Shown: in pieces, positions 4,959-15,991 of the stretch
Layout of the letters: every line of letters starts with the position of its first letter
How positions within the stretch are numbered: position 1 is the stretch's first letter
Source of the DNA: Candidatus Methanoperedens sp.
GTDB taxonomy: Archaea; Halobacteriota; Methanosarcinia; Methanosarcinales; Methanoperedenaceae
Assembly (NCBI GenBank): GCA_027460615.1
Contig: JAPZAO010000192.1
Coordinates: forward strand, 1 to 36,964
Direction of reading: 5' to 3'
Length of the DNA stretch: 36,964 nt
Translations under genes and position numbers: made by a program
The notes under the pieces: generated by a model
What the model saw: the letters and a program-made list of their open reading frames with translations, nothing else
Told to the model about the DNA's origin: nothing
Database searches by the model: none

Positions 4959-7157
4959 ATGAATATCAAAGACCTCGGCCTTCCCGGCACTGCAATCAAA
5001 TTCTATCAGGATTCGGGCATAACCCAGCTCTATCCACCCCAGGCCGAAGCCATCAAAGCAGGTCTCTTGGACGGCAAAAACATCGTAGCCGCAATTCCCA
5101 CAGCCTCGGGCAAAACACTGTTGGCTGAATTTGCCATGTTAAAATCAATACTGGATGAGAACAAACGTGGAAAAGCTCTGTATATCGTGCCCTTGCGGGC
5201 TCTCGCAAGCGAGAAATACGATAGGTTCCAGAGTTTTGATATCAGGAAAGGCAATGGCAGGGGCATATTAACAGGCATAGCGACAGGCGATTTCGATGCC
5301 AGCGGGGACTGGCTTGGGGATTATGACATCATAGTTGCCACTTCCGAAAAAGTGGACTCACTTTTGAGGTTCAAAACCAGATGGCTGGAAGAAATAACGG
5401 TTTTAATCGCTGATGAGATTCACCTTATCGATTCGCCTGACCGCGGTCCAACGCTTGAAATAGTTCTTGCAAAATTGCGGCAGATTAATCCTGATATGCA
5501 GATCATAGCACTTTCTGCGACTATTGGAAATGCGAACGAGATCGCAAAATGGCTCGATGCGAACCTCGTTGTCAGCAACTGGCGTCCAACTGAACTGAAA
5601 GAAGGGGTTTTCTTCGGGAATGCCATTACTTTTGCCAACAGAACCCAGCGCGTAATAGAAGAGTTCCATAAGGACAGCGCCATTTCACTGGTTGCAGATA
5701 CTATAAAAGAAGGCGGGCAATGTCTCATTTTTGAGAGCAGCCGGAAGAACAGCGAAGGTATGGCTGCGCGCGTTGGTACTTCGATATCGAAATTGATACC
5801 AGCCGAGGTAAAAGAAAAACTAAAGAATCTCGCGGCTGAAATCAATGAAACAAGTGAAGTGGAATCCACAAGAAAACTTGCCATGTGCGTGGAAAACGGA
5901 AGCGCATTCCATCATGCAGGACTTATTTCCGAGCAGCGAAAAATCGTGGAGGACGGCTTTCGGGCAGGCATAATAAAAGTAATATCTTCAACTCCCACGC
6001 TTGCGGCAGGACTTAATCTCCCGGCGCGCCGGGTCATAATCAAGGGCTACTGGCGCTATGATGTCAATTTCGGGCAGACCCTGATTCCTGTGCTTGAATA
6101 CAAGCAGATGGCCGGGCGCGCAGGACGCCCAAGACTTGACCCGTATGGCGAATCCGTCCTTGTCGCAAAGACATTTGATGATTTGGAAGAACTTATGAAG
6201 CAGTATGTCCTTGCCGACGTTGAGAAGATATGGTCAAAACTGGGAAGCGAGAACGCGCTGAGAACGCATATTCTTTCAACGATAGCTACCGGGTTTGCAC
6301 AAAGCATGGAAGAACTCCTTGAGTTCATGAGAGCGACATTCTATTCTACACAGCAGGAACCCTGGAGCCTGAAGGCTGTTATCGAAAAAGTGATTGACTT
6401 CCTTGTTGAAAAAAGGTTCATAAAAAAAGAGAATGGTCTTTTTGCCACGCATCTCGGGGAACTGGTATCACGGTTGTATATCGACCCGCTTTCTGCCTCG
6501 ATGATTCTTGAAGGAATGGAAAAGATAGAAGAAAAAGGCATCCAGTACACGGATTTAACGCTTCTTCATCTTGCATGCAGGACGCCGGATATGCGGCAGT
6601 TGTACCTGCGCACAAACGATTATGAATGGTTAAGCGACCTCGTTATGGAACACCATGCCGAATTTGTCCAGATACCGGCGCAGTTCAAGGTGGATTACGA
6701 GTGGTTCCTGTCTGAGGTAAAAACCGCATGCGTGATGCTTGACTGGATAAACGAGAAAAAAGAAGAAGATATAGTCAAGAAATTCGGAATAGGTGAAGGC
6801 GATATAAGGGCGCTTTCCGAAACCGCGCTCTGGCTTGTTCATTCAATGGCTGAACTTGGAAGGCATGAGAAACGCTCTTGTGGAAGTGCGGCAGCCGAAC
6901 TTGAAAAACGCGTGGAATACGGGGCAAGCCCTGAGCTTCTTGACCTTATCCAGATACGAGGGATAGGGCGTGTCCGCGCCCGGAAGCTCTTTAATGCGGG
7001 AATCCGGGATATGGAGACGCTTCGGATTTCTGACCTCCAGACTGTTTCTAATATAATCGGGCCGAAAGTTGCCGCGAAAATCCTGAAACAAATCGGGGCT
7101 TCGGTAATTATGGAAGAACGAACCGAAGAACAGCGAAGCCTCGAAGATTTTAGTTAA
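4959..7157 (+). CDS. hel308: Hel308 superfamily 2 DNA helicase
   Basis: ATP-dependent 3'-5' DNA helicase of the Hel308/HelQ family, which acts on stalled or forked replication intermediates. The 732-residue length is typical. Seen in order: a Q-motif-like YPPQ (25-28), Walker A PTASGKT (47-53), the DExH box DEIH (152-155), SAT motif LSATIGN, and motif VI QMAGRAGRP (383-391). A winged-helix/ratchet domain follows, with a C-terminal helix-hairpin-helix region (LIQIRGIGRVRARKLF) that acts as the brake domain in known structures. It is monocistronic or leads into uppS, which begins 41 bases later behind its own ribosome site. Confidence 0.97.
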   Translation: MNIKDLGLPGTAIKFYQDSGITQLYPPQAEAIKAGLLDGKNIVAAIPTASGKTLLAEFAMLKSILDENKRGKALYIVPLRALASEKYDRFQSFDIRKGNGRGILTGIATGDFDASGDWLGDYDIIVATSEKVDSLLRFKTRWLEEITVLIADEIHLIDSPDRGPTLEIVLAKLRQINPDMQIIALSATIGNANEIAKWLDANLVVSNWRPTELKEGVFFGNAITFANRTQRVIEEFHKDSAISLVADTIKEGGQCLIFESSRKNSEGMAARVGTSISKLIPAEVKEKLKNLAAEINETSEVESTRKLAMCVENGSAFHHAGLISEQRKIVEDGFRAGIIKVISSTPTLAAGLNLPARRVIIKGYWRYDVNFGQTLIPVLEYKQMAGRAGRPRLDPYGESVLVAKTFDDLEELMKQYVLADVEKIWSKLGSENALRTHILSTIATGFAQSMEELLEFMRATFYSTQQEPWSLKAVIEKVIDFLVEKRFIKKENGLFATHLGELVSRLYIDPLSASMILEGMEKIEEKGIQYTDLTLLHLACRTPDMRQLYLRTNDYEWLSDLVMEHHAEFVQIPAQFKVDYEWFLSEVKTACVMLDWINEKKEEDIVKKFGIGEGDIRALSETALWLVHSMAELGRHEKRSCGSAAAELEKRVEYGASPELLDLIQIRGIGRVRARKLFNAGIRDMETLRISDLQTVSNIIGPKVAAKILKQIGASVIMEERTEEQRSLEDFS

Positions 7158-7198: not shown

Positions 7199-8143
7199 TT
7201 GAGTTTATCGGGAATTTTATATGGTGGCTATGAGGCTTTACTTGCCAATGAAATAAAAGATAAACCAGTTCCATCCCATGTTGCCATTATAATGGACGGT
7301 AACAGGCGATTTGCCAAAAAGAACGGGTTTAATTATTATTACGGTCATTTCAAGGGCGCGGACACGACTGAAAAAGTTCTTGACTGGAGTTTTGACCTCG
7401 GCATTAAACAGCTCACGGTTTACGCTTTTTCAACGGAGAATTTTGAAAGGACTGATGAAGAGAAGAACAGGATTTTTGAACTCATTGGTATAAAATTCGA
7501 TAAAATATGCGTCGATGAACGCACTCATAAGCGCCGAATGAGAGTGAGGGTAGTTGGAAATATTGATCTCCTTCCCCCGTCCCTGCGAACATCGGCAAAA
7601 CATGCAGAAGAAATCACAAAGAATTACGATGGCGTATATCTCAATGTTGCGCTTGCTTATGGCGGGAGGCAGGAACTTATTGACGCTGCGCGGAAAATGG
7701 CATGGAAAATCAGGACCGGTGAATTATCCTTAAAGGACATTAACGAAGATACGATATCGAATAACCTGTATCCTGCAAGCGGCTCTATGCCCGGTGTTGA
7801 CCTTATTATCAGGACCGGCGGCGATGAAAGGATATCCAATTTCCTCCCGTGGCAGGCCAACGGGAATGAATGCGCCGCATATTTCTGTGCCCCTTTCTGG
7901 CCTGAGTTCCGAAGAATTGACTTCCTGCGGGCTATACGCACATACCAGACAAGAGAGCATGAAAGGCAAAAAAACACGGTTATGCGGATAGTCAAACTTT
8001 TAAGCTATTATGGGCTGGTGGAAGTTGAAGATGTTATTTCCATCACCAGGAAATTTATTAAAATCCCGAAAGAAGAAGTCATAAAGATACTTCATGAACT
8101 TACGTACCATAATGCTGTGATGCATAACATGATTAAGTGGTAG
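7199..8143 (+). CDS. uppS: cis-prenyltransferase, catalytic-type subunit (UppS/DHDDS-like)
   Basis: Adds isopentenyl diphosphate in cis to an allylic primer to make the polyprenyl (dolichol-type) carrier of archaeal glycans. It starts with TTG at 7199, supported by GGAGTGA five bases upstream. The catalytic motif IIMDGNRRF places the essential Asp at residue 33; further family motifs are YAFSTENF and IIRTGGDERISNF (RTGG 205-208). The usual C-terminal RxRRFG of homodimeric bacterial and archaeal enzymes is replaced by REHERQKN, so the RxG motif that completes the active site is missing. The protein extends about 60 residues further (314 in total). The missing motif is supplied by the homologue at 13925-14578 (see findings). 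Confidence 0.93.
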   Translation: MSLSGILYGGYEALLANEIKDKPVPSHVAIIMDGNRRFAKKNGFNYYYGHFKGADTTEKVLDWSFDLGIKQLTVYAFSTENFERTDEEKNRIFELIGIKFDKICVDERTHKRRMRVRVVGNIDLLPPSLRTSAKHAEEITKNYDGVYLNVALAYGGRQELIDAARKMAWKIRTGELSLKDINEDTISNNLYPASGSMPGVDLIIRTGGDERISNFLPWQANGNECAAYFCAPFWPEFRRIDFLRAIRTYQTREHERQKNTVMRIVKLLSYYGLVEVEDVISITRKFIKIPKEEVIKILHELTYHNAVMHNMIKW

Positions 8144-8293
8144 TCTAAATCTAATATAAAATAGTCTGCTTCATCTAAGTCTTTTTATCCTTAGAATCAG
8201 CTGGGCTGAAGCTAACCTGCACTTCGGGAGTAAACGCAACCATCTGATAGAAGTGGATTAGATATCCCTGCAAGCCAGAATACTACCAATGAT

Positions 8294-8433
8294 TTCGTAG
8301 TTTAAGTAAATTTTTTATATGTCGAGAACAATAAAATGTATTTAATTGCGTTGATGGCGGCGCAGGATATGGTGGTATCATGAAATACGGCAATACGAAA
8401 GAAGGTATATCCGACAGGAAGAAGGTCGGCAGA
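8294..8433 (+). repeat. Promoter-plus-leader direct repeat, copy 1
   Basis: About 140 bases nearly identical to 9399-9542. It contains a TATA-like TTTTTTATATG (about 8311-8321), a conserved leader with GTTGATGGCGGCGCAGGAT, and the first 18 codons of the lipoprotein gene at 8380. The rest of the 8144-8379 gap holds only a T-rich stretch (near 8180) that may end the uppS transcript; I see no gene there. Confidence 0.85.
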
Positions 8434-9096
8434 AGGAAGAGCGCGTGGATATGGATAGCAATGGCGCTGATGGTTGTGGTGGTGGCAGGGTGTGTTTCTA
8501 AGCCCAGTGATATGACAAAGAACGAAACTGTGACCACGCCTACAGTACCTGCCTACAAAGAGACAAAAATAGCTATACCTGAGCCTACGACTGAACAAAT
8601 ATTACCTACCTACAATGAGACTAAACCCTTAAAAATCAATGATACATTCGAGACATGGTCGAGAGGTTATTTCGCCAATTACTATGAAGAGCATCCCCTT
8701 TTTAAAATAATTAATAATTATAGTGATTGGATCGCATTCTTAAATGAACAAAGAAAAGAAGAATCTGAGAGGTTAGAAGGCACACTATTTCCTGGACCGA
8801 CAGTAATACCAAGAACAATGGGACCAGTTGATTTTAATAATTATTTTATTATCTCCGCCATGATGGGATATAAAACTAAACTGAAACCTGAAATCGAAAT
8901 AAAAAATATTAATAGATTGAATAACGTAGTAAATGTCACTATCTGGCTGTATAATCCCAGCTTTGGAGAAGCATCTATGAGTTCGCCTTATCACATAGTT
9001 ATAGTTAAAAGGGAAGTGTTGCCTATAGGGAATTCCACATTTGTTTTTATTGATACTGAAAGCAAGGAACTTGGAAAGGTGGAGGTAAACGAATAA
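8380..9096 (+). CDS. Lipoprotein with one PrcB-like domain
   Basis: A 238-residue secreted lipoprotein. A charged N terminus (GISDRKKVGRRK) precedes a hydrophobic segment ending in the lipobox VVAGC. After a Thr/Pro/Glu-rich linker the folded part runs from about residue 80 and resembles the C-terminal domain of PrcB (PF14343): a DWIAFLNEQ helix, PVDFNNYFIISAMMG, then PSF...SPYHIVIVKRE. In Treponema denticola PrcB is an accessory lipoprotein needed for assembly of the subtilisin-type protease dentilisin. Here a paralogue (9591) and a subtilase (10961) follow on the same strand. The domain call is from sequence pattern alone; a role in protease maturation is inference. Confidence 0.75.
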   Translation: MKYGNTKEGISDRKKVGRRKSAWIWIAMALMVVVVAGCVSKPSDMTKNETVTTPTVPAYKETKIAIPEPTTEQILPTYNETKPLKINDTFETWSRGYFANYYEEHPLFKIINNYSDWIAFLNEQRKEESERLEGTLFPGPTVIPRTMGPVDFNNYFIISAMMGYKTKLKPEIEIKNINRLNNVVNVTIWLYNPSFGEASMSSPYHIVIVKREVLPIGNSTFVFIDTESKELGKVEVNE

Positions 9097-9398
9097 AAAG
9101 AGGGATAGCATACTGGGCGAATGCAATGCAGGCGGTGTAATGGCAAAAGCTATTGAACAGTAACATATATTGAAATATGCCGTGGATTTTCTCGGCGGTA
9201 TCTTTTTTATTTGATATAGACGCCGGATGACTGGAAATCTCTCTGGCAAAGCGGGGGGTGGGCAGGGAAAGAATTATTATTTTATATATGAGACGCGGTG
9301 CAAGGTTTTAGCTAGATGAGAGGGCGTTTAATGCGGGTAAGGATAGGGAAAGATTACAAATAAAATTGCAGAAAACAGGTATTATGACTTCGAAACAA

Positions 9399-9542
9399 TT
9401 CGTAGTTTAAGGATATTTTATATATGTCGAGAACAATAAGATCTGTTTAATTGCGTTGATGGCGGCGCAGGATGAACATGGTGGTATCATGAAATACGGC
9501 AATACGGAAGAAGGTATATCCGACAGGAAGAAGGTCGGCAGA
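9399..9542 (+). repeat. Promoter-plus-leader direct repeat, copy 2
   Basis: Second copy of 8294-8433, with a TATA-like ATTTTATATATG near 9413-9424 and the same leader, plus a few small insertions. The rest of the 9097-9590 gap (9097-9398) contains no convincing gene. Confidence 0.85.
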
Positions 9543-9563
9543 ATGAAGGAACATTTTAAATAA
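9489..9563 (+). pseudogene. Orphaned 5' end of a PrcB-like lipoprotein gene
   Basis: This 25-codon frame repeats the first 18 codons of the gene at 8380 almost exactly (MKYGNTEEGISDRKKVGR). It then diverges and stops at TAA before any hydrophobic segment. The functional paralogue begins 27 bases later with an unrelated signal peptide, so this is the leftover start of the duplicated gene. It could also act as an upstream ORF if the 9413 promoter is used. Confidence 0.7.
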
Positions 9564-9590
9564 AAAAAATGGAACTGGGGTACCTGGATT

Positions 9591-10901
9591 ATGAGTATTA
9601 TTAATAATGGAGTGAAGATAAGAAATAAATTAAAAATTCTTTTTTTGTTTTTTATAATCACAACAATATCTCTTGGATGTATAGAGTCTCAAAAACTACC
9701 AGTTCCTAATGAAACTGAAATCGCTACACCTTCTGTAACTGAACAAAAATTACCTACTTATAATGAGACTAAACCATTAAAAATCAATGATACATTCGAG
9801 ACGTGGTCGAGAGGTTATTACTCCAATTACTATGAAAAGCGTCCCTATTTTAAAGTGATTACTAATTATAGCGATTGGATTGCTTTCTTAAATGAGCAAG
9901 GGTCTAGCAAGTTAGAGGGAACATTATTTCCTGGACCGAATAAAATGCCGAAGACAATAGAACCTACCGATTTTGATAAGCATTTTATTATCGCTGCCAT
10001 GATGGGTTTAAAAGCAATTACAGAAGGCCCTGAAATTGAGATAAAAAATATCAGCAGAACAAATAATACACTGAATGTAATGGTTCGGAGATACGTACCT
10101 ACTGCTGGAGCATTGACTTCGAGTTCACCATACCACATTGTTATAGTTAAAAGGGAATTGATACCGGAAGAGAATACTACATTTAATTTTATAAATATTG
10201 AAAACGGCAGGCTAATGGCAAGGATTACAGGAGGAGATTACAGATCATTTTCACTATTGATCGAAGCCATTTCGTCTGATCATCCAGTCTTAAGAAATAA
10301 TGCTGGGGTGATGGAGATTTCAGAAAATTACTATTTCGGAGACTTCGGACAGGACTGTGCTGATCGCTGCGATGGCAAAGAGCTTAAAAATTACATAAGC
10401 GGATATCCAAAGCACTGGGTTGGGGTGGAGGATATCGTAATAACCCTTCAAAATGCCTTTACTGAGAACGAAAGGTTAAAAAATATAGATATAACTCCTA
10501 AAGAAGAGAAAACTGGAACTTTTAGAACTGTTGCGATTGGTAATTCTAGTGGATATACAAACCCGGCTTTTATTGTCATCAACAACAGAACAGAATGGGT
10601 TAATGTCTGGCAGAAGCATTCAAGTTACCTTGTTAACCAGAAACCTCAGGTGCCTGAGGTAAATTTTACCAATGAAACAATAGTTGCTGTTTTCTTTGGA
10701 GAAGCTCCTGCCTATGATGCCGGACTTATAGATATTACAAAAGCAGAGAAAAACGTTTTTATAAATCTGCAAAAGAAGTATCCAGCGAGCCGTTCTGCAG
10801 TCCAGCCGCATTTTATAATCAGGTTACCAAAAAGTATAGATAATATCATTCTCAGAACATTGAGATGGGAATACAAAAATGGGGATGAAACGGTTATCTG
10901 A
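9591..10901 (+). CDS. Lipoprotein with two PrcB-like domains
   Basis: 436 residues. The signal peptide ends at the lipobox ISLGC and is unrelated to that of the gene at 8380. From LPTYNETKPLKINDTF onward it is clearly homologous to that protein through the first PrcB-like domain (DWIAFLNEQ, PTDFDKHFIIAAMMG, SPYHIVIVKRE). A middle region with a Cys pair (DCADRC) leads to a second, diverged PrcB-like domain (EWVNVWQKHSS, PEVNFTNETIVAVFFGEAP, IIRLPKS). An AT-rich TATA-like TTTTAAATA at about 9553 would give a very short leader. It is probably anchored on the outer face of the membrane; the protease gene begins 59 bases downstream. Its function as protease partner is inferred from context. Confidence 0.78.
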   Translation: MSIINNGVKIRNKLKILFLFFIITTISLGCIESQKLPVPNETEIATPSVTEQKLPTYNETKPLKINDTFETWSRGYYSNYYEKRPYFKVITNYSDWIAFLNEQGSSKLEGTLFPGPNKMPKTIEPTDFDKHFIIAAMMGLKAITEGPEIEIKNISRTNNTLNVMVRRYVPTAGALTSSSPYHIVIVKRELIPEENTTFNFINIENGRLMARITGGDYRSFSLLIEAISSDHPVLRNNAGVMEISENYYFGDFGQDCADRCDGKELKNYISGYPKHWVGVEDIVITLQNAFTENERLKNIDITPKEEKTGTFRTVAIGNSSGYTNPAFIVINNRTEWVNVWQKHSSYLVNQKPQVPEVNFTNETIVAVFFGEAPAYDAGLIDITKAEKNVFINLQKKYPASRSAVQPHFIIRLPKSIDNIILRTLRWEYKNGDETVI

Positions 10902-10960
10902 AGGTATAATTATGCTGGTTTTGTCTCGTAGAGAAATCAAAAAATAAATGAGAAAATAAA

Positions 10961-13834
10961 ATGAAAATAAGTAAAAGAATTGGATTAGGGGCATTGCTGG
11001 TGGCGACGTTGCTGGTAGCAGTTGTATTTGTGCCATCCATAGGTGCAAATCCTGATGCGAATCAGAAAAAATCTGAAAAAGCTCTGGAATTTATATCGCA
11101 GAAGCATGCAATACCCAAAGAACAGCTAATGATTGTCAATGAAAAAGAGGCAAACTTCCCCTTATCTAACCAAAAAATTTGGAGTGTAAAAATTCTGGAT
11201 ACGAAAACCACAGAAGCGTACGGTGCGGATCTTGATGCGGCAGATAACATTGCAGATATTAAAGAAGCAAAGGCTTTAGAGGTTGCCAAGTATGTAGAAA
11301 AATACGGCAAGAAGGAAATAGAATTACATGAAAAACTCCAAAAAATGAATCCTGATGATACAGTGGAAGTCGGAATCTGGTTAAGTCCCATTATAAATGC
11401 ACCAAAGCCTGAGCGTGAAATCAGCGAGCAGGAATATAAGGAGATACTGGATGCAAAGAAAAAGGCTTATGCACAGAAAGAAAAACCAGTTCTCGATATA
11501 CTTAAGGCAAAGAACATCAACATACGATACACATCTCAGTATGCGCCCCTGATCTATGCAGAAGTACCTGCAAAATTAATGGCTGAGGTAGAGAACATTC
11601 CAGAGGTTGATGGAATATATCTCGCGAGGGAGTTCAAGCCATTGCTAGATAAAGTAGTTCAGACCGTAAAAGTACAGCCAGTGTGGAATGCTGGAATCAC
11701 TGGAAGTGGAATTAAAGTGGCAGTAGTTGAAGAGGGCGCTATAAACTTTTCCAATACCTACCTTATATCAGGAACTAACAACATGAGTGCATTACCTTCT
11801 AACCATGCAACCGAGGTTGCAGGAATAATTGCAAGCCAGCATCCCACATATAAAGGAATATCCTACGGGGTACCTGGATTATTAAGCGCAAATTTTGGGC
11901 CTTGGGACAATAGCGATCCTGCGATGGAATCGCGAATAATCCGAGCTTCAGAATGGGCGGTAAACAATGGTGCAAATATATTAAGCAACAGTTGGGGAAA
12001 TAATACCGACGGCACCATGAGTGGCATAGATAAATACTTTGACCATGTTGTCTGGGAAGATGGTAAAACAGTAACGGTAGCAGCAGGAAATAATGAAAGT
12101 GGCGAAAATGGAAATGTTACTTCGCCTGGATTGGGCTACAATGTGATTACCGTTGGCGGATTCGAAGATAAGGATACCTCTGCATGGTCAGACGATACTA
12201 TGTGGGGGATGGGACAGAGCCCGGGTTCAGCATGGCGGGATCCTGTATCACAACATGGCGATAGAGACAAACCAGAGGTTGCTGCTATGGCTACACATAT
12301 ATCCGAAAGTAATAAGATTATAACTACAAGGAGCCCGACTTTACACGACCCCTCTCCGATAGATCAGACAGTTGCTGCCGGAACAAGCTACGCAGCGCCA
12401 TCCGTTGCCGGAGAAGCAGCGCTGCTCATGCAGGCAAAGAGTTGGTTGACAGCCTGGCCCGAAACTGTAAAGGCCATTATCATGGCATCAGCGAATCATA
12501 ACATAGAAGGAGATAGCACGTTGAGCGAATATGATGGCGCCGGTGGAATAGACATATCAAGGGCATATGAGATTGCATATAATGACAATATGTCTGGAGA
12601 TGTGCTTTTTGCCAGTGATTTCCCCAAAAATTACACATTCACAGTAACATCAGTAAATCAAAAGATCAGAGTAGCTATAGCTTGGGATTCTCATCCCGAC
12701 TCGAATCATCCTCCAACAAGCGATACATTAGAATCAGATTTAGACTTATACATCCTTGATCCTAATGGAAATATAGTAGCTTCCTCAACAAGCTATGATA
12801 ACAGCTATGAAATAGTTGAGTTTACTCCACAAACCACCGGAACCTTCAAAGCAAGGGTCAGCGCAAACAGATTTGACGGAGCATATGAATACGTTGGGTT
12901 TGCTAAAACACTCCCCTATCTCTCAGGCTGGGACCACAGAAAGCTTAAAACCATCACCGGCACCACCGCAGGCGCGCAGACAAACTACCAGATGAAGCTC
13001 ACAGTCTATAAAGGCTCTGGAACCGATTCGCCCGGAGTGGTTTACCTCGGCGGTAATGTGAGGGACGATTTCGGCGACCTGAGATTCACCAAATCAGACG
13101 GCGTAACACTGCTGGACTACTGGATAGAATCCTACACATCGGGCGTAAGCGCCGTGGTATGGGTCGAGGTTGATTCGATACCGGCAAGCCCTGATACAGC
13201 CAACATCTATCTCCATTACGGCAATCCCTCAGCCACAAGCACAAGCGACGGCACAGCTACATTCAATTTCTTCGACCATTTTGATGGCTCATCCTTAGAC
13301 TCAGGTAAATGGGTAATCAATCTGCCGTCAGAGATATCTACGTCCCAGTCGGGCGGTATTCTTACCATTACCGGTACAGGCTCCTGGGGTAGTACAGAAG
13401 CACAGGTTTATAGTACTGCAGATGTCTCCAAAAGCTACACTTCTATGGTTATTCGCTGGAACCCTGGAAATTCGATTTACGGCCTCGTAGGTGGTTCTGG
13501 CTGGGATGCTAATGGTTTGAATGGGTATTGGCTTTATACATCAGCTTGGATCAGGAAAGATAGTACATTTTATACAGGCCAAGGAACCTCCTCGACGTAT
13601 TCGGGCGATACAATACCAACACCACCATCGGCGTATCAAATTACGGAAATTCAAAGAAATAGTCCAACCAACACAAAATATTTGTCAAACGGTTCTCTTA
13701 TAGATACCAAGACAACTTATGTACCAAACCAGGATATGAGACTTGCCTTCAGTCCGTATCAGCCAGGCAAGACTATTTATGTCGACTGGGCAGCAGTACG
13801 TAAATTTGTTTCCCCAGAACCTGCATGGGCTTAA
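10961..13834 (+). CDS. Secreted S8 subtilisin-like protease with DUF2341 tail
   Basis: 957 residues. A signal peptide (residues 1-29, no lipobox) is followed by a long propeptide region and the S8 catalytic domain (about 235-530). Oxyanion Asn343 (LSNSWG), His282 (NHATEVAGI) and Ser476 (GTSYAAPSVAG) are in place. The usual Asp is Glu257 (VAVVEEG), and HGTH is changed to HATE. Next come a beta-sandwich resembling pre-peptidase C-terminal domains (SDLDLYILDPNGNI), a DUF2341 domain (from WDHRKLKTI, about 660-770) and a final lectin-like beta domain ending in FVSPEPAWA. It is presumably extracellular and possibly surface-bound through the tail. The PrcB-like lipoproteins upstream suggest a complex. 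Activity with Glu in the triad is uncertain. Confidence 0.9.
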   Translation: MKISKRIGLGALLVATLLVAVVFVPSIGANPDANQKKSEKALEFISQKHAIPKEQLMIVNEKEANFPLSNQKIWSVKILDTKTTEAYGADLDAADNIADIKEAKALEVAKYVEKYGKKEIELHEKLQKMNPDDTVEVGIWLSPIINAPKPEREISEQEYKEILDAKKKAYAQKEKPVLDILKAKNINIRYTSQYAPLIYAEVPAKLMAEVENIPEVDGIYLAREFKPLLDKVVQTVKVQPVWNAGITGSGIKVAVVEEGAINFSNTYLISGTNNMSALPSNHATEVAGIIASQHPTYKGISYGVPGLLSANFGPWDNSDPAMESRIIRASEWAVNNGANILSNSWGNNTDGTMSGIDKYFDHVVWEDGKTVTVAAGNNESGENGNVTSPGLGYNVITVGGFEDKDTSAWSDDTMWGMGQSPGSAWRDPVSQHGDRDKPEVAAMATHISESNKIITTRSPTLHDPSPIDQTVAAGTSYAAPSVAGEAALLMQAKSWLTAWPETVKAIIMASANHNIEGDSTLSEYDGAGGIDISRAYEIAYNDNMSGDVLFASDFPKNYTFTVTSVNQKIRVAIAWDSHPDSNHPPTSDTLESDLDLYILDPNGNIVASSTSYDNSYEIVEFTPQTTGTFKARVSANRFDGAYEYVGFAKTLPYLSGWDHRKLKTITGTTAGAQTNYQMKLTVYKGSGTDSPGVVYLGGNVRDDFGDLRFTKSDGVTLLDYWIESYTSGVSAVVWVEVDSIPASPDTANIYLHYGNPSATSTSDGTATFNFFDHFDGSSLDSGKWVINLPSEISTSQSGGILTITGTGSWGSTEAQVYSTADVSKSYTSMVIRWNPGNSIYGLVGGSGWDANGLNGYWLYTSAWIRKDSTFYTGQGTSSTYSGDTIPTPPSAYQITEIQRNSPTNTKYLSNGSLIDTKTTYVPNQDMRLAFSPYQPGKTIYVDWAAVRKFVSPEPAWA

Positions 13835-13857
13835 GTGCTTGAATTACATACATCATG

Positions 13858-13909
13858 GAATAATCACGTATAAATACGGCACATTAGCCAGTATCATACG
13901 TGATTATTC
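13858..13909. terminator. Bidirectional hairpin between convergent genes
   Basis: A perfect 14-base inverted repeat (GAATAATCACGTAT at 13858-13871, its complement at 13896-13909) with a 24-base loop lies between the protease and the convergent cis-prenyltransferase homologue. T-runs are weak, so it may be a processing or termination structure. Confidence 0.5.
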
Positions 13910-13924
13910 AGGCGCCGTATAGAA

Positions 13925-14578
13925 TTATTTCCCGAACCTGCGCTGCCGCTTCTGGAAATCTCTTATCGCCCTCAGGAAATCAACCTTCCTGAAATCAAGC
14001 CAGTTCACATCAGTAAAATACAGCTCGGAATAAACTGACTGCCAGATAAGGAAATCGGTCAATCTCTTACCCCCTGCCCTGATTACAATATCAGGCTCGG
14101 ATTTAAATAATAGGTGGGATTCAATCACGTTTTCATTGATTTCATCGGGTGCCAGTTTTCCATTCTTCACCTGTGTCATTATTTCCTTGATTGCCCGCGT
14201 CAATTCATACTTCCCGCTGTACCCGAGAGAAATCTCGATATTCATTCCTGTTGAGGCGTGTTTTTTTATCTCCCTGTCCCCTCTTGTGATTACGGTAATA
14301 TTCGGAGTGATATTACAAAGCGCAGATGGGATTTCCCCTGACAGTATATTGCAGATTTTCCTGCCAAGTTTTGCGTCCACTTCGATAATGCTTATATAAA
14401 TTGTAACAGTACCTATTCCCGTTTCTTTGCACCAGGCTGCAAAGGAATTCAATTTGCCATAATTATCATCTGTCAGCAAATCACTTTCTGAAAGCGCAAG
14501 GACTATATGTTTCGGCACACCCTGTTTTTTTATCGCATTTTTGAGTTTCCATTCATATGTTTTCGAGATGAATCCCAT
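13925..14578 (-). CDS. Divergent cis-prenyltransferase homologue, NgBR-like subunit
   Basis: 217 residues homologous to UppS but degenerate at the N terminus. Where uppS at 7199 reads VPSHVAIIMDGN this protein reads VPKHIVLALSES, so the catalytic Asp is Ser30 and the diphosphate-binding motif is gone. The C-terminal half is well preserved (IVIRAGG, TDFLIWQ, ELYFTD, KVDFLRAIRDFQKRQ) and ends exactly in RRFGK, giving an RxG motif at 214-216. This is the pattern of NgBR/Nus1, the non-catalytic partner of eukaryotic DHDDS, and of a heteromeric enzyme I recall being reported from Methanosarcina mazei. Expected role: partner that completes the active site of the uppS product. It is divergent from the DUF92 gene by 57 bases. 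Confidence 0.88.
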   Translation of the reverse strand: MGFISKTYEWKLKNAIKKQGVPKHIVLALSESDLLTDDNYGKLNSFAAWCKETGIGTVTIYISIIEVDAKLGRKICNILSGEIPSALCNITPNITVITRGDREIKKHASTGMNIEISLGYSGKYELTRAIKEIMTQVKNGKLAPDEINENVIESHLLFKSEPDIVIRAGGKRLTDFLIWQSVYSELYFTDVNWLDFRKVDFLRAIRDFQKRQRRFGK

Positions 14579-14635: not shown

Positions 14636-15991
14636 ATGATGAAGTTGATACAGTGCTGTGAGAAACAGGGCATTTTTATTTTTATCGGCCTGATTGTGCT
14701 GCTTTTTCCTTTCATTAAGACATCGTATCTGGCGGCGGTTTTTGTCGGAGTTGCTTTGCTTTTTTCTGTCCTTTCCCCCAAGTCTTCTGCTTTCCATTTT
14801 TTTGCCCGTGAATCGGATATCAAAGCCGGTAAACTTATCAGCCTGATCCAGCTCTTTTTTACCATAGCCTTCCTTTTCATAATAAGCCTGGCAGTAGGAC
14901 AAAATAAATTCCCTTTATTTATTATCGGGGCGGCTTTTGCCATAACCACTTTCGGTGATGGTGTTGCAGATGCAGTTAATATTCTTGAAAAAGCAAAAGA
15001 GACCGGTAACACCCATAAAATAAAGTATTATTCTGCAAAATCAAGTATTATATTCCTGATTTCTGGGAGCCTTTATGCATTTGTTGCAGGAACATGGATA
15101 TCGGGCTTTAGCTTGAAAGTCCCCTATGGTATGATTTTTTTTCTTGCAGTTATCGGCGCTATTACAGGTGCGCTTCTTGAATCCATGATAACCACCGATG
15201 ATAATATCGTCATACCTTTTGGTTCGGCAATGGTAATGTGGCTTTTCTATACGTTCGGTTACAACGTCGATACTGCATATCTTATGCAGGCGCTTGTTTT
15301 TTCGTTTATTCTCGGGTATCTTGCCTACAGGGCACGTATCGCCGATATCTCGGCCATGCTGAGCGCTACACTGCTCGGAGTTGTTATTATCATATCCAGC
15401 AATATAACGTGGTTATTTATTCTTCTCGCCTTTTTTTTACTGGGAAGTCTCTTTACACGTTATAAATACGATTATAAATTGGCAAGGGGGATGGCAGAAG
15501 GAAAAGGAGGTGTCCGCGGATATAAGAACGTTTTCAGCAATTCATTGGCTGCCCTTGCCCTTGCTGTGGCTTATGGAATTTTTCCGGCGCACGGTCAAAT
15601 CTTATTAGCAGGGTATCTCGGCTCGGTAGCCACAGCCTGCGGCGACACGCTGGCAAGCGAAATAGGAGAAACGTACAAAGGAGAGCCGCGCATGATTACC
15701 ACGTTCAAAAAAACCAGGCCAGGTACAGACGGCGCAATTTCGCATCTTGGCGAAGCGGCGGCATTTTTCGGGGCATTTGCTATTGCGATTCTTGCATTCT
15801 TCCTGATACGAAATGATTTTATCCTCGTGATTGCGGTGGCTGCAGGAGGTTTTATCGGTACTAACATCGATAGTGTGCTTGGCGCCACGCTCCAGCAGAA
15901 AGGTTACCTTTCAAACAACGGGGTCAATCTTTTTGCAACTATTTCCGGGGCGATCATTGCCGGGTTACTTTATTATTCAATGGGTTTGTAG
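14636..15991 (+). CDS. DUF92 membrane protein, putative two-domain polyprenol/prenyl-phosphate kinase
   Basis: 451 residues, almost entirely hydrophobic with a dozen or so membrane spans. The C-terminal half is DUF92 (TIGR00297-like), with GVRGYKNVFSNSLAAL, ACGDTLASEIGE and GAISHLGEAAA. The plant DUF92 protein VTE6 phosphorylates phytyl phosphate. The N-terminal half, with TTFGDGVADAVN, resembles the dolichol kinase/VTE5/CTP-transferase fold. One polypeptide may therefore carry two successive prenyl kinase steps. The start ATG at 14636 directly abuts GGTGA, and the ATG three bases on is equally possible. Being divergent from the NgBR-like gene supports a role in polyprenyl carrier metabolism. 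Substrate and activity are inferred. Confidence 0.82.
   Translation: MMKLIQCCEKQGIFIFIGLIVLLFPFIKTSYLAAVFVGVALLFSVLSPKSSAFHFFARESDIKAGKLISLIQLFFTIAFLFIISLAVGQNKFPLFIIGAAFAITTFGDGVADAVNILEKAKETGNTHKIKYYSAKSSIIFLISGSLYAFVAGTWISGFSLKVPYGMIFFLAVIGAITGALLESMITTDDNIVIPFGSAMVMWLFYTFGYNVDTAYLMQALVFSFILGYLAYRARIADISAMLSATLLGVVIIISSNITWLFILLAFFLLGSLFTRYKYDYKLARGMAEGKGGVRGYKNVFSNSLAALALAVAYGIFPAHGQILLAGYLGSVATACGDTLASEIGETYKGEPRMITTFKKTRPGTDGAISHLGEAAAFFGAFAIAILAFFLIRNDFILVIAVAAGGFIGTNIDSVLGATLQQKGYLSNNGVNLFATISGAIIAGLLYYSMGL

Follow-up and report, generated by a model that had tools for sequence, protein, structure and literature searches.

The window analysed here (contig JAPZAO010000192.1 of a Candidatus Methanoperedens assembly, 36,964 nucleotides) carries two genes of the cis-prenyltransferase (cis-PT) family, designated A and B, which converge towards each other and are separated by a set of lipoprotein and protease genes. 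A helicase gene lies upstream of A, and a DUF92 membrane protein gene lies head-to-head with B (Table 1). The first-pass annotation had read the two cis-PT genes as the parts of one DHDDS/NgBR-like heteromeric enzyme; it has to be corrected in that the gene of B is on the minus strand.

Table 1. Features of the locus; positions are those of the window.
Feature	Position	Strand	Evidence
Hel308 helicase, upstream of A; syntenic-block marker, outside the enzyme	4959..7157	+	NF002654 above cut-off; same neighbour in Methanoperedens relatives
Subunit A, DHDDS-like catalytic cis-prenyltransferase	7199..8143	+	PF01255, motifs, AlphaFold, PDB matches
C-terminal extension of A	7955..8140	+	predicted long helix plus small helical/strand unit
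5.77-kb insertion between the convergent stops, absent from close relatives	8148..13917	.	blastn, junctions read
Putative lipoprotein 1; duplicates N-terminal part of lipoprotein 2	8380..9096	+	repeats D1-D6; hydrophobic N-terminus then Cys
Putative lipoprotein 2, weak PrcB-like stretch	9591..10901	+	NF033596 3e-4, below cut-off
Secreted S8 subtilase with PPC and DUF2341 domains	10961..13834	+	PF00082 6e-28, PF04151, PF10102
Subunit B, NgBR-like non-catalytic cis-prenyltransferase paralogue	13925..14578	-	PF01255, NUS1 match, cis-PT fold
DUF92/TIGR00297 integral membrane protein, head-to-head with B	14636..15991	+	PF01940 1e-65

Subunit A is read from a TTG start and is 314 aa long. It matched PF01255 with 236 bits (4.5e-70) over profile positions 1-216 of 219, and its Asp33 sits in the sequence IMDGNRR. 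At the RxG position it reads REHERQKN (residues 252-259), with which RERRFGG of E. coli UppS was aligned, and about 55 further residues follow to the C-terminus. The claim that A keeps the catalytic Asp and is without RxG was thus confirmed by reading and by the alignment with E. coli UppS. The AlphaFold model of A, made with the panel alignment described below, had a mean pLDDT of 90 and matched cis-PT structures; in the fold search against the PDB, ranks 1-8 were all human DHDDS chains. DHDDS was also the best match of the A profile in the PDB, with 249 bits against 230 bits for E. coli UppS. The C-terminal extension (about 55 residues in Methanoperedens) showed little conservation beyond the family and was missing in several, whereas the rest of A was conserved. 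A second A-type gene was seen on plasmid pMETEV01 of Methanohalobium evestigatum (NC_014254.1, L306, 3998-4852), where its neighbours are a TnpB-family gene and the gene of a PGF-pre-PGF domain protein, with no B partner within the stretch seen.

Subunit B, a protein of 217 aa, is most similar among named relatives to sequences on Candidatus Methanoperedens (ANME-2d) contigs, with up to 94% identity. In the alignment, Ser30 (in LSESDL) occupied the column of Asp33 of A, and the C-terminus read QRRFGK, both in agreement with the first-pass annotation. That annotation had taken the loss of the catalytic Asp as the mark of B; the replacement by Ser30 holds, but the defining loss is that of the whole P-loop, because the entire DGNRR-x-GHxxG phosphate-binding segment is missing. 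PF01255 accordingly matched B over profile positions 110-219, the C-terminal half (115 bits, 5.6e-33); the matches of A and B both exceed the cut-off of the profile. The AlphaFold model, again with the panel alignment, had a mean pLDDT of 85 and a cis-PT fold, to which bacterial and plant enzymes came nearest. The profile match to NUS1/NgBR covered the full domain and reached the last residue (1.6e-11), and hhalign gave 97% with an identity of 20%. When residues 10-110 of B were used in a phmmer search against the PDB, no match was obtained, and NUS1 was reached only by full-length comparisons. Since bacterial UppS gave B better scores than NgBR did, both by sequence and by fold, orthology of B to NgBR does not follow. 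No N-terminal transmembrane anchor was found in B, in which no 19-residue window exceeded a hydropathy of 1.1. The residues G122, E125, W179, Q180, E185, W193, R203, R211, R213 and G216 are invariant in B.

In Methanoperedens the usual gene order is hel308, A and then, in the opposite orientation, B and DUF92, and the convergent stop codons of A and B are 8-50 bp apart. In the window this distance is 5787 bp. When the region was compared by blastn with five relatives (L032, L034, L171, L172 and L176), the flanks aligned at 82-92% and abutted directly, and in the relatives 8-15 bp separated the two stop codons at this site. As the flanking DNA is continuous in the relatives, 8148-13917 is an insertion, which bears out the earlier remark that a protease cassette now separates the pair. 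No target-site duplication was evident at its junctions. Putative lipoprotein 1 had no Pfam match, and the two lipoprotein genes share duplicated segments, e.g., 8590-8751 and 9738-9899 at 89%, and others. There is no ground for assigning the genes of the insert to the enzyme. Inserts of 2.2 or 8 kb were also seen in the same A-B gap in other genomes of the phylum (L144, L153, L154 and L156).

To place the pair in the phylum, A and B genes were collected from each of 89 genomes of 21 families and aligned. The panel took only genomes with both genes among the matches listed; low-scoring matches were left out of that list, which under-represents B proteins of the greatest divergence. It is clear from the alignment that the two proteins divide the motifs of the family between them. 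All 89 A proteins had (M/Q)DGNRR and none had RxG; D33, R36, R37, R84, R205, R211 and S213 were invariant, N81 was likewise kept in 89 and E80 in 88. Conversely, DGNRR was found in no B protein, and the C-terminal RxG was present in 87 of them, with KxG in the other two. The G/H of the phosphate-binding loop was gapped in 88 of the 89 B proteins, and an Asp stood in the aligned catalytic column in nine, never within a DGNRR context. Chance or misalignment as the source of this pattern was ruled out by its recurrence in 89/89 genomes.

The number of PF01255 genes agrees with a two-gene system. In a sample of 246 genomes of the phylum, nearly all had exactly two matches, and among 78 sampled genomes the second of these usually started late in the profile and ran to its last position. 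Two genomes of one family (G045 and G053, family f12, 91% completeness) had no PF01255 match, the sole such cases among the 246. The assembly from which the window comes (2.39 Mb, 82% complete, 5% contaminated) has A and B as its only PF01255 genes, and neither of them joins DGN and RxG in one chain as a complete homodimeric UppS does. A third, complete UppS, named by the first-pass annotation as what would speak against its reading, was found neither in this draft nor in the 99%-complete genome of a close relative (G006); as the latter also has exactly two PF01255 genes, the missing third copy is probably no assembly gap. Third copies of another kind, with PDGNRR and a terminal LGG as in the homodimeric MM_0014 of Methanosarcina mazei, were found in three genomes of the panel (G007, G009 and G035) as well as in G280 and in Methanosarcina sp. 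2.H.T.1A.6.

The same alignments bear on whether A could work without B. As A has every substrate-binding residue of a cis-PT, it might form a homodimer in which some other element of the C-terminus replaces RxG, with B as a regulator or a decaying paralogue. The RxG motif does vary among known enzymes, yeast Nus1 having Asn instead (PMC7573591), and the LGG end of the MM_0014-type enzymes is an example of such an element. However, 43 different triplets occurred at the RxG position of A in the 89 genomes, and no conserved motif followed its last helix. A decaying B would be expected to have been lost somewhere, yet it is retained under clear constraint, RxG included, in all 89 genomes of the panel, which comprises genomes with both genes. 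We therefore regard a self-sufficient A as improbable. That B is a pseudogene was ruled out by the same conservation and retention.

The history of the two genes was examined in a careful tree computed without NgBR, whose end branch of 5.1 made it too divergent for placement. In this tree A formed one clade (support 99/91) and B another (100/99), so the A/B split is older than the radiation of this archaeal phylum. The patristic distances of A and B were strongly correlated (Mantel r = 0.83, with 0 of 2000 permutations as high). Human DHDDS grouped with A (97/93); forcing it to group with bacterial UppS was 7.5 log units worse, with an AU p of 0.166, so that this alternative is not rejected. 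A common origin with the eukaryotic pair is thus suggested by the tree for the catalytic subunit only. In a published Z-IPTase tree the main eukaryotic clade stood near archaeal sequences, and distant euryarchaeal paralogues were mentioned (PMC5088576).

The motifs, the folds, the co-occurrence and co-inheritance of the two genes, their neighbourhood and DHDDS as the closest solved relative of A together point to A and B as two different subunits of one heteromeric cis-PT. We consider this reading very likely (a probability of about 0.9), including a product that would be the polyprenyl diphosphate precursor of a glycosyl carrier lipid (archaeal dolichyl phosphate) and a tail of B acting in the active site of A. 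The proposal of a DHDDS/NgBR-like heteromer is well supported, by phylum-wide motifs, clades, co-inheritance and adjacency as well as by the DHDDS match. By this analysis A and B would form a complex in which neither subunit is expected to work well alone, and the product named is the probable one. Against the heteromer it can be held that the genes are often unlinked and that convergent genes are not co-transcribed: A and B were convergent with stops less than 900 bp apart in 38 of the 89 genomes, convergent but farther apart in five more, this window included, and unlinked in 46.

A mechanism can be modelled on the human enzyme, in the structure of which the NgBR tail R290-L-G-K293 is reported to interact with R37, K84, N82 and R85 of DHDDS and to bind phosphate at the second site, E81 of DHDDS belonging to the same network (PMC7573591). 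Residues R37, R38, E81, N82 and R85 of DHDDS, each of which touches the diphosphate or the NgBR tail in that structure, correspond to R36, R37, E80, N81 and R84 of A, and none of these is missing in more than one of the 89 genomes. As A keeps R36, E80, N81 and R84 (DHDDS R37, E81, N82 and R85) and B ends in R-F-G-K, the tail could act in trans. In the proposed scheme the active site would lie in A, where Asp33 would bind Mg2+, Arg36/Arg37 and Arg84 would bind the allylic diphosphate, and the region of Asn81, Arg205, Arg211 and Ser213 would form part of the site. B itself would bind no substrate; its RRFGK tail would enter the active site of A and aid the binding of isopentenyl diphosphate, in the role of the RLGK tail of NgBR in DHDDS.

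Of the 79 genomes that could be evaluated, 55 had the DUF92 gene next to B in divergent orientation, and this adjacency held also where A is elsewhere (families f2, f6, f9 and f14); each of 78 genomes sampled had one copy. B is thereby linked more tightly to DUF92 than to A, which lies within 900 bp in 38/89, and this could favour B as an independent protein with another function, such as holding the lipid product or serving as its chaperone, perhaps together with DUF92, and without dimerising with A. Such a protein would have lost the entire substrate-binding P-loop and kept an RxG tail, a feature known solely for completing an active site across a dimer, and in M. mazei the two paralogues other than MM_0014 are the ones that form a heteromer. 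An independent B therefore appears very improbable, even more so than a self-sufficient A, and the two-subunit enzyme is preferred. As for DUF92 itself, its plant member VTE6 is a phytyl-phosphate kinase. No remote link to the dolichol-kinase-type families was found in Pfam at E up to 10, nor any relative in the PDB, and we put forward a role of DUF92 in archaeal polyprenyl-phosphate metabolism purely as a hypothesis. In a wider and rather doubtful scenario, the split enzyme would be ancestral to the phylum, A and DHDDS would share an origin, the heteromeric dolichol synthase of eukaryotes would have been inherited from the archaeal one instead of being invented separately, and DUF92, by acting on the product, would close a gap in the dolichyl-phosphate metabolism of archaea.

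The split enzyme is far less special to this window than the first-pass annotation suggests. The system as such is known already from M. mazei and humans, and what the present analysis adds is its generality in the phylum and the link to DUF92; neither the phylum-wide census nor this link was described in the literature searched, which was mostly without subscription papers. A heteromeric carrier-lipid synthase, so far known from eukaryotes and one Methanosarcina, would then be the standard in almost all of an archaeal phylum to which haloarchaea, methanogens and anaerobic methane oxidisers belong. In this phylum, single 'uppS' annotations are probably half-enzymes, and neither expression nor modelling of one half by itself is advisable. 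The A and B sequences also provide a concrete set for testing an archaeal origin of human DHDDS/NgBR, and DUF92 becomes a candidate for the same pathway.

Among known systems, the homodimeric bacterial UppS has DGN and RxG in one chain, whereas A and B have one each. E. coli UppS is 35% identical to A and 27% to B; it shares the fold with both and with A also the active-site residues. The MM_0014-type enzymes, short-chain archaeal cis-PTs with C25-40 products (PMC8131916), belong to the same family and phylum and occur as a third copy in few genomes; unlike A or B they have PDGNRR and the terminal LGG in one chain, and they are absent from the draft genome of the window. The human DHDDS/NgBR enzyme resembles the pair in having one subunit with the Asp and without RxG and an Asp-less one ending in RxGK, both with cis-PT folds, and in that helical structure extends the C-terminus of the catalytic subunit. 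It differs in the N-terminal membrane segment of NgBR, which B is without.

The nearest counterpart is in Methanosarcina, of the same order as Methanoperedens. The heteromeric M. mazei enzyme mentioned in the first-pass annotation is real: in PMC8131916, which cites Emi et al. 2019, MM_0618 and MM_1083 are reported as a heteromeric cis-PT with C45-50 products. In one Methanosarcina genome, A, B and an MM_0014-like copy each occurred exactly once. Since Methanosarcina genomes have A and B once each, some with an MM_0014-like copy in addition, the published pair by elimination probably corresponds to A and B. The A-type and B-type proteins of Methanosarcina have the same complementary motifs as those of Methanoperedens, but their genes are far apart, B does not adjoin DUF92, and the C-terminal extension of A is longer in Methanoperedens.
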